From NCBI GenBank assembly GCA_021299375.1, contig JAJTGR010000002.1, positions 62,001-126,000 on the forward strand: a DNA stretch of 64,000 nucleotides. The letters are read 5' to 3'. Positions 50,949 through 53,946 of the stretch are shown one piece after another. Each line of letters opens with the position of its first letter. The first letter of the stretch is position 1. Source of the stretch: Gemmatimonadota bacterium. Lineage in GTDB: Bacteria > Gemmatimonadota > Gemmatimonadetes > Gemmatimonadales > Gemmatimonadaceae. Below the pieces are notes generated by a model that was given only the letters and a program-made list of their open reading frames with translations, was not told where the DNA came from and did not search any database. The translations under genes and the position numbers were made by a program.

Positions 50949-51806
50949 ATGTTCGACCGATTGCTGATCCTCCTGCTCGCGGCGCTGCCGAAGCACCTGC
51001 TCAGCCGCGCCGCGGGATTCCTTGCCGCTCGGCCGGTGCCGGTATCGTGGCGTGTGTCGCTCTACCTGGCCTACAGTCGCTACTTCGGCGCCAAGGCCGA
51101 GGAGGCGGAGCTCTCCCTCGATGCGTATCCCACGCTCAATGCGTTCTTCACGCGCGCGCTCAAGCCGGGGCTGCGGCCGGTGGCGCCGGATGCGATCGTG
51201 AGCCCCGTCGACGCCGCCGTCGGGGCCTACGGCGTCGTGACCCACGATACCCTGATCCAGGCCAAGGGACGCTCCTATTCGCTCGCCTCGCTGCTTGGCG
51301 ATCGTGACCTCGCCCAACGCTTCGACGGCGGATCCTACACGACGCTGTACCTCGCCCCCAAGGACTACCACCGCATTCACGTGCCGGTTGATGGCGACAT
51401 CACCCGGGCCGTGTACATCCCGGGGGCGCTGTGGCCGGTGAACACCGCCGCGGTGTCGCATGTCCCCGATCTGTTTGCCGTCAACGAGCGGCTCGTGATC
51501 ACGCTGGAGCGGCAGGGCGGCATCATGGCGCTCGTCGCCGTGGGCGCCACAATGGTCGGCATGACACGGGTGGTGTTCGATGACCTGCACACGAACGCAC
51601 GCCGCCGCACGGTGCAGGACCGGTGTTACTCACCAGCCATCCCGGTGCAAGCCGGCGGGCCGTTGGGCCACTTCGAGTTCGGGTCCACGGTGATCCTCAT
51701 CTGCTCGAGCGCATGCGGCATGATCGAGCCGCTGGCGCTTGGGGCGACGGTGCAGATGGGACAGCGGCTCGGTCCTCTTGCGGTTGAGAGGACCGTGTCG
51801 AGATAG
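50949..51806 (+). CDS. psd: Phosphatidylserine decarboxylase proenzyme
   Basis: 285 residues, the usual length of the E. coli-type enzyme. Psd makes phosphatidylethanolamine from phosphatidylserine at the inner membrane and uses a pyruvoyl group generated by self-cleavage. The triad is visible: D88 in IVSPVDAAVG, H144 in DYHRIHVPVDG and S246 in FEFGSTVIL. Cleavage is expected between G245 and S246, S246 becoming the pyruvoyl. The usual LGST reads FGST here, a conservative change. The N-terminal hydrophobic LLILLLAALPKHLL gives membrane association. No phosphatidylserine synthase gene is adjacent. A palindromic element begins 14 bases after the stop and may end the transcript. Confidence 0.94.
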   Translation: MFDRLLILLLAALPKHLLSRAAGFLAARPVPVSWRVSLYLAYSRYFGAKAEEAELSLDAYPTLNAFFTRALKPGLRPVAPDAIVSPVDAAVGAYGVVTHDTLIQAKGRSYSLASLLGDRDLAQRFDGGSYTTLYLAPKDYHRIHVPVDGDITRAVYIPGALWPVNTAAVSHVPDLFAVNERLVITLERQGGIMALVAVGATMVGMTRVVFDDLHTNARRRTVQDRCYSPAIPVQAGGPLGHFEFGSTVILICSSACGMIEPLALGATVQMGQRLGPLAVERTVSR

Positions 51807-51819
51807 TCAGCGCGGCGTG

Positions 51820-52008
51820 GGAGAACCGGGATGATGAGAGAGGATGGAGATGGTGAGCCACTCACGAACCGATCGCCAGAGCACGTCACGTGCAGGGGGG
51901 GTAGCGGGCACCGCCCGTCGACAACCCGCCGTGCAGGTCAAGCCCTCGGCATTCTCGACGTCGTGCATGGCTCACCGTCTCCATCCTCTCTCGTCGTTCC
52001 GGTTCTCC
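51820..52008. repeat. Palindromic MITE/REPIN-like element, copy 1
   Basis: Left arm 51820-51860 and right arm 51968-52008 are inverted copies at 37 of 41 positions, enclosing 107 bases. The inner arm ends (ggtgagcca / tggctcacc) and the first 25 or so bases inside each end resemble those of copy 2 at 53292-53489: cgatcgccag.gcacgtca on the left, ctcgg.a.tctcg on the right. The centres differ. It encodes no protein. It fills the gap between psd (14 bases away) and the convergent DUF2231 gene (20 bases away), so its hairpin could also act as a two-way terminator. Confidence 0.85.
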
Positions 52009-52028
52009 GGCCCACGTCTCACCGTCTC

Positions 52029-52523
52029 TCACTCACGATCGCCCGCACCGGCGGTCGGTGCCGCTGCCGCCGTGTAGGCCGCGCCCGCATTGTGCTCGTA
52101 GACCAGCTTCCCGCCGCTGTGCCCGACGTTCCAGCCCGCACCGAGTACACCGAGGGTGCCGATGGCACCTGCCACGCGCATCGCGCTGCCGATGCGATTG
52201 GGGAGCAGGCCACCGGCGGCTACCACCAGCACCCCCCCGGTCACCAGCACGAAGAGTTCGGCGGCCTCTTCGTGGGTGTGAATGGCCCCCTCCGGCACGA
52301 TCTTCTCCACCCGATCTTCCTCCTCCTCGCCGGTCTTCTCGGCCACGAGGCCGCTCATGAGCAGGAGGGCCAGGCCTCCCACGGGCAGAAACCAGGCCTG
52401 ATGCGGCTTCATCCACCGGGAGCCGGCGACCAGGGCCCCGAGCATCAGCAGGGGAACGAGTACGGTCAGTGCGATCGGCATGTGCACGATCAGCGCATGC
52501 AGGGGAAGGTTCTGGAACGTCAT
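52029..52523 (-). CDS. DUF2231 membrane protein
   Basis: 164 residues with a GGAG eight bases before the start (ccggagtgagcc). The DUF2231 signature is at the N-terminus: LPLHALIVHMPIALTVLVPLL, in which two histidines sit in the first membrane helix. Hydrophobic segments lie at about 12-34, 45-62, 90-107 and 115-133, with an acidic loop (EEEEDRVEKIVPE) and a histidine pair (HTHEEAAELF) between. Related proteins are found near cytochromes and are suspected haem or redox membrane proteins; function is unproven. It is divergent from the membrane-anchored LuxR-type gene with 183 bases between starts, and the pair is bracketed by two palindromic elements. Confidence 0.85.
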   Translation of the reverse strand: MTFQNLPLHALIVHMPIALTVLVPLLMLGALVAGSRWMKPHQAWFLPVGGLALLLMSGLVAEKTGEEEEDRVEKIVPEGAIHTHEEAAELFVLVTGGVLVVAAGGLLPNRIGSAMRVAGAIGTLGVLGAGWNVGHSGGKLVYEHNAGAAYTAAAAPTAGAGDRE

Positions 52524-52706
52524 GGCTCACTCCGGTTGAACAGTGCGGGCGGCGTGGTGCGCGCCCTTGAGTCCAATGATCAGCACATCATGCCGTGCAC
52601 TCTATCCGGCATGTGTCGCGCATCGCGTCCCGGGACATCCGACATCCGCACCACCAGTGCAGCCTGCAGCCACTTTAACGCCCGTCACCATGTTGGATAA
52701 GTCAGC

Positions 52707-53285
52707 ATGACCGATTTTGACTCAGGCAACTCCGTGCCGATGACCGGGCCGCTGCCGGTCGTGCTCGCCACGTTCCTCTTGCTCGTAACCGTAGGGGGCA
52801 TCGTCGATCTCGCTTTCGACCGGCCGAGCACGTGGCGGTCCTGGCATGTGGCCGTCGAGCTGCTCCTCGTGGTGGCGAGCTTCGGCTTTGCCGTGTTGCT
52901 CTTTGGGTACTGGCGCCAGTCCGTTACCGCCTTGGCCGATGCGCAGGCATCACTCGCCTCGGCCTCCCAGGCGCTGGCCGAGCGCCAACGGGAGCGCGAC
53001 GCGTGGCGGGCGAACGCGGAGCAGGCCCTTGCCGGGTTCGGGGCCGCCATCGACCGGCAGTTCGCGCAGTGGCAACTGACGCGCGCCGAACGGGAGGTGG
53101 CCTTGTTGCTGCTCAAGGGACTTGGCCACAAGCAGGTGGCGGCCCAGCTCGGCCGGTCGGAGCGCACCGTGCGGCAGCAGGCCGTGGACGTCTATCGCAA
53201 GGCAGGCATTCAGGGGCGCGCCGAACTGGCGGCCTTCTTCCTGCAGGACGTGGCGCTTCCGTCAGAGTCGAGGGGGCAGACGTGA
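52707..53285 (+). CDS. Membrane-anchored protein with LuxR-type HTH
   Basis: 192 residues. Two membrane helices (about 15-35, VVLATFLLLVTVGGIVDLAF; and 47-68, HVAVELLLVVASFGFAVLLF) are followed by a coiled coil (LADAQASLASASQALAERQRER) and a C-terminal LuxR/GerE helix-turn-helix: WQLTRAEREVALLLLKGLGHK, VAAQLGRSERTVRQQAVDVYR and IQGRAELAAFFL. There is no sensory or receiver domain, so the DNA-binding domain would be tethered to the membrane by a dimerising coiled coil. Possible signals are membrane state or a partner protein, the obvious candidate being the divergent DUF2231 protein. A palindromic element begins seven bases after the stop. Confidence 0.85.
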   Translation: MTDFDSGNSVPMTGPLPVVLATFLLLVTVGGIVDLAFDRPSTWRSWHVAVELLLVVASFGFAVLLFGYWRQSVTALADAQASLASASQALAERQRERDAWRANAEQALAGFGAAIDRQFAQWQLTRAEREVALLLLKGLGHKQVAAQLGRSERTVRQQAVDVYRKAGIQGRAELAAFFLQDVALPSESRGQT

Positions 53286-53291
53286 GCGTTC

Positions 53292-53489
53292 GAGCTCAGA
53301 CGGCGATAGATCATTGAGACGGTGAGCCACACACGAGTCGATCGCCAGCGCACGTCATCCGCTCGGCGAACGGCGGCCAGTGGGAGCTGAAGGGCCCACC
53401 GCGCGATGCGCCCCGTGCGGATGGAGTGCTCGGTACTCTCGTGGTCTTGCGTGGCTCACCGTCTCAATGATCTCTCGCTGCCTGAATTC
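53292..53489. repeat. Palindromic MITE/REPIN-like element, copy 2
   Basis: Left arm 53292-53330 and right arm 53451-53489 are inverted copies at 34 of 39 positions, including 23 uninterrupted, enclosing 120 bases. The inner arm ends match copy 1 at 51820-52008, but the outer arm sequence differs (gatcattga here, aggatgga there) on both sides in a compensating way. It begins seven bases after the LuxR-type gene and ends 37 bases before the NUDIX start. Confidence 0.85.
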
Positions 53490-53526
53490 TCCCACGCGCC
53501 TCTCGCCGCTCACCCTCTCCCCTCTC

Positions 53527-53946
53527 GTGACTCAGCGTCCCTCCGTCGGCGTCGCCGTCCTGGTGTTCCGCGATGATCGCGTCCTGCTCGGCCGCCGCCG
53601 CGGTGCACACGGCGACGGCACCTGGCAGTGTCCCGGTGGCCATCTCGAATGGGGCGAGACGGTCGAGGCGTGCGCCGAGCGTGAGGTGCTCGAAGAAACC
53701 GGTCTCGTCATCAACGGCACGCGACCCGGCCCCTTTACCAACGACGTGTTCGAGGCCGAGGCGAAGCACTATGTCACGCTGTTCATGCTCGCGGACCACC
53801 TGACAGGCGAGCCCGAGGTGCGCGAACCGGAGAAGTGCGAGCGTTGGGACTGGTTTGCGTGGGACGCCCTCCCCGAGCCGCTGTTCCTGCCGCTGCAGCA
53901 TCTGCGCGAGACAGGCTGGTGCCCGCCCGGGGCTACGGCACGATGA
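53527..53946 (+). CDS. NUDIX hydrolase
   Basis: 139 residues, starting at GTG 53527 (VTQRPSVGVAVLVFRDDRVLL), which matches where NUDIX proteins begin. The only in-frame ATG upstream (53467) lies in the arm of the palindromic element and adds an unrelated peptide. The Nudix box is complete near residues 38-60: GGHLEWGETVEACAEREVLE followed by ETG, fitting Gx5Ex7REUxEExGU. The enzyme should hydrolyse a nucleoside diphosphate derivative; the length and WQCPGGHLEWGE form resemble MutT/NUDT15-like nucleotide pyrophosphatases. Its last 14 bases overlap the 3' end of the convergent alcohol dehydrogenase gene. Confidence 0.87.
   Translation: MTQRPSVGVAVLVFRDDRVLLGRRRGAHGDGTWQCPGGHLEWGETVEACAEREVLEETGLVINGTRPGPFTNDVFEAEAKHYVTLFMLADHLTGEPEVREPEKCERWDWFAWDALPEPLFLPLQHLRETGWCPPGATAR

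Follow-up and report, generated by a model that had tools for sequence, protein, structure and literature searches.

Long quasi-palindromic repeats behind genes in a Gemmatimonadaceae genome: a dispersed family, paired arm changes and signs of DNA copying

Described stem-loop repeats and the two elements of the window

ERIC and other families of bacterial stem-loop repeats are dispersed between genes, each unit forming a single imperfect stem-loop 100-200 bp long (PMC2267715). The likeness of the elements described here to these families is one of size, shape and location. The ERIC-type families belong to another bacterial group, and that text does not contain the name Gemmatimonas. REP/BIME sequences and REPINs with their RAYT are likewise palindromic and extragenic, and they occupy mostly convergent or tandem spacers (PMC3733652; see also PMC3116915). 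REP units are 20-40 bp long and carry a GTAG or CGTC tag, whereas the copies studied here are longer, spanning 152-262 nt by their model matches. Near the arm start, one of the 26 arms of this genome has GTAG and two have CGTC; in the 117-nt family introduced below, none of the 140 arms has either tag there. Membership in the REP/RAYT group was rejected, as the Y1_Tnp transposase was not found in this genome and neither unit length nor tags fit.

A different precedent is provided by quasi-palindromes that are remodelled when replication switches template. In the literature this process is recognised by arms homogenised tract by tract and by a spacer turned round in place (PMC8604942; PMC8794818). 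The repeats described here resemble these cases in paired changes along one tract at an orthologous locus and, in draft assemblies of a separate family, in apparent tip inversions. The cases reported there are short inverted repeats in yeast genes, with arms of about 7-16 bp, and rRNA and microRNA hairpins, in which arm change accompanied by loop inversion is very rare; the present repeats differ in being bacterial and dispersed, with arms of about 50 to more than 150 bp, at many loci. As the short inverted repeats of proteobacteria have been taken to indicate recurrent template switching (PMC8604942) and loop inversions are described in bacterial rRNA (PMC8794818), bacteria already offer precedents for the process. 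A limited literature search returned no report of routine template switching in a dispersed bacterial repeat family, and the titles and abstract openings of open-licence papers did not report such repeats in Gemmatimonas. The family described below is a genus-specific form of the known "dispersed intergenic stem-loop repeat"; what is unexpected is its mode of change.

The window is the whole stretch of 64,000 nucleotides that was analysed. It contains two long quasi-palindromes, W1 and W2, whose surroundings are as follows (model matches are in contig coordinates).

50949-51806, plus strand: phosphatidylserine decarboxylase (PSD) gene (PF02666, E 1.6e-55)
51820-52008: W1, whole element, long quasi-palindrome, starting 13 nt past the PSD stop codon
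51820-51867, no strand: W1 left arm, 48 nt, 88% complementary to 51961-52008
51868-51960, no strand: W1 inner stem and tip, 93 nt separating the arms
51961-52008, no strand: W1 right arm (model match 113934-114008, E 1.1e-16)
52029-52523, minus strand: DUF2231-like membrane protein gene (PF09990, E 4e-4, under the Pfam cut-off), with its stop codon 20 nt beyond W1
52707-53285, plus strand: LuxR-type HTH protein gene (PF00196, E 3.6e-8), with its stop codon 4 nt ahead of W2
53290-53492: W2, whole element, long quasi-palindrome
53290-53336, no strand: W2 left arm (model match 115290-115362, E 3.7e-18)
53337-53444, no strand: W2 inner stem and tip, 108 nt separating the arms
53445-53492, no strand: W2 right arm (model match 115417-115492, E 1.3e-18)
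53527-53946, plus strand: NUDIX gene (PF00293, E 3.9e-24), called start 34 nt beyond W2

The first-pass annotation had reported two long palindromes here, and both are present: a self-palindrome scan of the window gave W1 87 bits and W2 81 bits (best core 53296-53485), compared with 52 for the third-ranked palindrome, and the base-shuffled window produced one match over the 36-bit floor. Its claim that the arms of each element still pair is borne out by the inspected alignments, which over about 41 bp contain 4-5 mismatches in W1 and 5 in W2. The pairing of W2 at its widest involves 67-nt arms (53270-53336 and 53445-53511) that are 75% complementary. Each element had been placed within 7-14 bases of an upstream stop codon; the gaps are 13 nt for W1 and 4 nt for W2, the latter measured to the model match. 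The inner portion of W1 is similar to the family consensus and its tip is variable; its left arm matches the sequence model at G000:C109:113820-113891 with E 9.9e-16, a value to be read with the fact that this arm is among the 15 used to build the model. Assignment to a known Rfam family was discarded, since a search of positions 51500-53800 with Rfam 15 gave 6 matches at E <= 1, none of which reached its gathering score (best 47 versus 168 bits).

A dispersed family and its position behind genes

The sequence-only arm model, R1, built from 15 arms, was searched against the 4.48-Mb genome to which the window belongs. It found 26 arms at E <= 1.3e-7, the 15 used to build it included, every one with an inverted partner at a distance of 13-111 nt, which makes 13 pairs; as 150 of 3707 first-look candidates were scored, 13 copies is a minimum. 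The significant matches in this genome include no solo arms, and the weaker ones (E >= 0.02) are unpaired; three of these were folded and none gave such a hairpin. W1 and W2 are two members of a dispersed family of long quasi-palindromes with at least 13 copies here. The relatedness of the two, proposed earlier from their shared inner sequence, therefore stands as membership in a family with at least 11 additional copies, and the local duplication that had been named as the refuting alternative is ruled out by the genome-wide search with the arm model.

Diverged relatives of W1 and W2 occur in the same-genus genomes G048, G086 and G127, with paired matches in G086 and G127. At E <= 1 the R1 matches were most numerous in G048 (22), G086 (13) and G138 (11), with 9 in G127; all 30 of the 30 genus genomes match at this threshold, so these counts include noise. 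Folding revealed long hairpins at most inspected places in G048, G086 and G127, and none at the inspected R1-match places in G146, G154, G157 and G161. Across the wider bacterial family, 12 of 148 genomes have an R1 match at E <= 0.01, and the five of them outside the genus that were folded (G020, G029, G009, G128 and G137) gave no hairpins. A profile made from the arms of this genome matches elements of G086 and G127 at E 3e-4 to 5e-3, values that are flattering because those loci were chosen for their R1 matches. Pattern searches of public genome-contig and viral-contig collections, from which near genomes may be absent, returned 0 matches.

By our own count G048 carries copies in at least 26 distinct places, from 26 of 67 candidates scored. 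Its contig 1 is almost empty of listed copies from about 1.1 to 3.1 Mb, with one near 1.85 Mb; an interpretation as clustering on the chromosome was dropped because only those 26 of 67 candidates were scored. Three G048 copies (L159, L165 and L166) lack most of the left arm and have GGGTTATGGGTTATCGGGT-type sequence in its place, and sequence similar to GGGTTATGGGTTATCGGGT makes hairpins of its own (L227).

A separate family of shorter elements is common to the related drafts G154, G157 and G161, and in a sample of 70 copies 53 measure exactly 117 nt, with nearly invariant ends. Matches spanning fewer than 80 query bases were dropped from this sample, not every match was fetched, and the 17 copies of other lengths were left out of the column analysis. 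Profile comparison with W1/W2 gave a single in-element match, at E 7.9; as homology is not demonstrable in this way, the 117-nt family is used as a model of the same kind. In G157, a common sequence (CTTGTATCTAGCACTCACGCGATC...) directly follows three different copies (L325, L352 and L353), two of which lie within about 100 nt of contig ends; it may be an assembly or adapter artefact. The flanks of G048 and 117-nt copies carry degenerate repeats of 8-10 nt (GAGATCTGAGATCTGAG, GAACTCAGAGCTCAG) on both sides, which are broadly complementary across the element. Copy-specific complementarity was not detected in the 8 nt flanking the 117-nt copies (4.28 of 8 versus 4.27 when shuffled).

The position of these elements relative to genes is uniform. 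According to a codon-usage gene caller of our own, with doubtful ORFs at C51, C31 and C61, each of the 13 copies in this genome has a stop codon facing it from one side or both, and none lies between divergent starts. The same is true of 25 of 25 G048 copies, one of which has a single flank called, and of 62 of 62 classifiable 117-nt copies, with eight more unclassified. A de novo hairpin scan of about 400 kb each from this genome (four contigs already known to carry copies), G048 and G022 found 27 long hairpins, several of them apparently unrelated to W1 in sequence: 12 in convergent spacers, 13 in tandem spacers, 2 inside called genes and 0 in divergent spacers. The samples contained 115 convergent, 495 tandem and 122 divergent spacers, and by nucleotide share the probability of 0 of 25 intergenic hairpins falling in divergent ones is about 4e-4; the control, shuffled by base and not by dinucleotide, produced 0 hairpins.

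W1 and W2 had been described as bracketing a DUF2231/LuxR pair. They do so, and the arrangement is incidental: the order PSD-DUF2231-LuxR is found in G069, G109, G154 and G161, on which ground a composite unit carrying the two genes was rejected. The adjacency of PSD and NUDIX in G149, a hint toward such a unit, was dropped with it. In G154 and G161, LuxR and NUDIX are almost adjacent and W2 is absent between them, so that copies have been gained or lost over deep time. At the PSD/DUF2231 junction these two genomes carry a 102-nt element related to the 117-nt family; G048 has a different hairpin beside DUF2231, after an additional coding-looking stretch, and weaker hairpins occur in the PSD/DUF2231 region of G069 and G109.

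Further hairpins were noticed at other gene ends. On the 3' side of rpoC (loci L251-L271), long hairpins are found in this genome (C12a), G142, G154 and G157, further on from the gene; most other genomes have only a shorter, terminator-like hairpin close behind it, and in G086 the best inverted repeat after rpoC has its arms about 540 nt apart. This genome also has hairpins of 107-150 nt at gene 3' ends with arms unlike those of W1 (L209:237-368, L198:2995-3144 and L201:18236-18342), the former two having GATCACGCAGAGGC in common, and two very similar 108-nt hairpins, L025:8897-9004 and L025:9130-9237, lying 233 bp apart.

Paired arm changes and tip orientation

Covariation between the arms, noted at first from W1 and W2 by themselves, is real in part: the outer half of the stem shows more of it than re-paired arms do, and the inner half has no excess. 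In the outer half of the copies in this genome, arm identity is 0.78 within a copy versus 0.73 between copies, a difference equalled in 4 of 20,000 permutations; the inner half has no such within-copy excess. The outer arms contain 28 double changes versus 16.6 when shuffled (1 of 2000 shuffles as high), and those of G048 contain 212 versus 140 (0 of 2000), while the corresponding counts for the inner arms are 21 versus 19.7 and 47 versus 56. In G048 the excess is confined to the outer 75 of 140 columns, as judged from 24 copies with both anchors. The covariation is thus limited to the outer stem. Arm matches in G048 run in tracts, with a lag-1 value of 0.036 compared with 0.019 for mispaired arms; the tract signal in this genome is weak, 799 of 5000 column shuffles being as high at lag 1. 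In both genomes the left and right arms form one pool, with nearly equal identities for left-left, right-right and left-right comparisons.

One clean orthologous pair in the W1-like family, G127_L374 and G146_L373, is 91.9% identical over 3.1 kb. Its 81 arm columns comprise 53 unchanged pairs, 11 unchanged mismatches and 8 gapped columns, together with 5 columns changed in one arm only and 4 changed in both arms yet still paired. The double changes, 4 of the 9 changed pair columns, all lie inside 17 columns. This one locus is direct evidence that a single tract can be altered in both arms at a fixed site; paired tract changes between orthologs are what a template-switch site is expected to show. 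The tip of this pair is not flipped; it is also the sole clean comparison in the W1/W2 family, in which no tip inversion was seen.

The 117-nt family provides more orthologs. Matching of flanks gave 54 ortholog pairs at 24 loci common to two or three species, with flanks 92.9% identical in the 44 two-sided pairs; seven copies are partnerless in this sample, for which not every match was fetched. Both copies are 117 nt long in 40 of the 54 pairs (18 loci), and these were used for the flip analysis. The tip is in register in 26 pairs and inverted in place in 14, at 7 of the 18 loci, all in draft assemblies. Tip identity in the inverted pairs is 94.6% when flipped versus 66.0% in register, and the flanks remain in register (0.86 versus 0.69 flipped); the stem adjacent to the tip tends to follow the flipped orientation and the outer stem is mixed. 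When other lengths are counted, a flip is seen at 9 of 22 informative loci, of which eight are three-species loci with a single odd copy and the ninth is a weak two-species case. All eight three-species loci are parity-consistent, as they would also be if a single copy were wrong.

The clearest flip is at a 104-nt locus, where G154 and G157 agree and the tip of G161 is inverted. The G161 copy has an identical arm run of 42 bp, compared with 12 and 9 in G154 and G157, and it is closer to its flipped orthologs (0.933 and 0.942) than to the best other copy (0.846 and 0.856, values lowered by differences in copy length). In most flipped trios the arms of the odd copy are no better than those of its partners (mean 0.875 versus 0.863 in 8 trios), several flipped copies are matched by some other copy just as closely as by the flipped ortholog, and some orthologs are no more alike than non-orthologs (mean 0.83). 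Variable columns of this family contain the same alleles in both arms and many G-G and C-C mismatches, pair 40/78 being Watson-Crick in 18 of 53 copies. Overall, the arms vary mostly independently, with 87 double changes versus 75.3 (sd 6.9), which is non-significant; the ten outermost pairs, with 14 versus 7.6, are the exception.

Competing explanations and significance

Taken together, the orthologs suggest copying at the DNA level, and the account that we consider somewhat more probable than not is that these are old dispersed palindromic repeats, placed after genes and remodelled by replication template switching. DNA polymerase would occasionally switch template between the arms, as in other quasi-palindromes, and the arms would stay paired because such switches copy one arm into the other. 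The same switching could sometimes turn the tip round in place, probably accompanied by some exchange between copies. The spacers at gene 3' ends would be places that tolerate such structures, and the hairpins may incidentally halt transcription in both directions. Of the options listed in the first-pass annotation, a mechanism that copies the folded form gains support from the paired tract in G127/G146 and the tip inversions in the 117-nt family. Its other options fared less well, as the tests below indicate.

Exchange between copies deserves serious consideration, either in place of template switching or alongside it. Ectopic gene conversion, or recombination of arms, acting in place of template switches within a copy would account for the single pool of arms, for the identical alleles in both arms of the 117-nt family, and for orthologs that are as distant as non-orthologs or no closer than other copies; as the whole explanation it is possible without being likely, given that the 104-nt copy was inverted in place with no other copy in the set as close and that the excess of paired changes in the outer arms is copy-specific. 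We hold it improbable that the tip flips are assembly artefacts. The genomes G154, G157 and G161 were assembled as drafts, in about 50, 290 and 320 contigs, and misassembly could account for some of the flips: short-k graphs are confused by arms that are nearly identical, an exact 31-mer is shared within a genome by 37 of 70 copies (12 of 24, 15 of 25 and 10 of 21), and the flipped copy of the clearest locus, with its 42-bp identical arms, is the most error-prone case. Against this, no two copies within a genome have an exact 55-mer in common, and identical arm runs have a median of 17; the parity of the three-species loci agrees, with the reservation made above, and the paired changes of G127/G146 are independent of orientation. 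An explanation by non-autonomous mobile elements (REP/REPIN or MITE) that move still or have moved recently, their arms kept similar by transposase binding, seems less probable again. The copies are dispersed, W2 has been gained or lost relative to G154 and G161, and the 117-nt family has a fixed length in 53 of 70 copies and nearly invariant ends. A Y1 transposase (PF01797, the sole transposase family searched) is present in 8 of 30 genus genomes, with one match each in G154, G157 and G161, but it was not found in G048, G086, G127 or this genome, whose assembly is 96% complete, which speaks against the REP-type transposase first proposed. The lack of solo arms among significant matches also argues against mobility, and the 24 loci common to two or three species mean that recent movement is not evident.

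Selection on an RNA, in the form of 3' UTR hairpins or U-less two-way terminators whose pairing is kept by compensatory mutation, is in our judgement unlikely, though it ranks above the artefact and mobile-element explanations. The stop-facing position of all classified copies, the 0 of 25 hairpins in divergent spacers and the hairpins of other sequence near DUF2231 in G154/G161, G048 and, in weaker form, G069/G109 are in its favour. No G-U bias is seen: in transcript sense, tandem copies have 85 G-U to 107 A-C mismatches (p 0.13, including four G048 copies, L159, L165, L117 and L123, aligned over just 8-33 nt) and tandem 117-nt copies 61 to 61. Convergent 117-nt copies have 58 to 34, on an arbitrary contig strand. 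A control of 61 T-tailed terminators gave 15 to 13 and did not discriminate, so the test carries little weight. An excess of double changes, which compensatory mutation would produce, is present in the outer arms and non-significant in the 117-nt family overall, whose variable pairs include many G-G and C-C mismatches. The elements do not look like intrinsic T-tailed terminators: in a scan that detects few anyway (15 of 131 ordinary G048 3' ends), none turned up within the element in 50 stop-side flanks of 35 copies, and six flanks have one between the stop codon and the element. A U-less form of the paired terminators suggested earlier is conceivable, though unlikely.

A broader reading, that the genus harbours several families of giant hairpins at fixed 3' spacers that are routinely rewritten and flipped in place, is offered tentatively and is doubtful at present. 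If it is true, many copies would flip within about 7% flank divergence, and the genus would serve as an ongoing assay, set up by nature, of template switches during replication; there might also be a host activity that favours switching, or hairpins that are used as two-way transcription barriers.

Covariation between the arms of a stem is usually read as evidence for a functional RNA. The paired arm changes at one orthologous site and the tip inversions in a similar family suggest that DNA copying can mimic RNA covariation in long stems and at many sites, and where arms are rewritten in this manner, matching arms need not imply a working RNA. If template switching is confirmed as the process that remodels these repeats, it would become measurable in nature, and the family would stand as a warning against equating stem covariation with RNA function.
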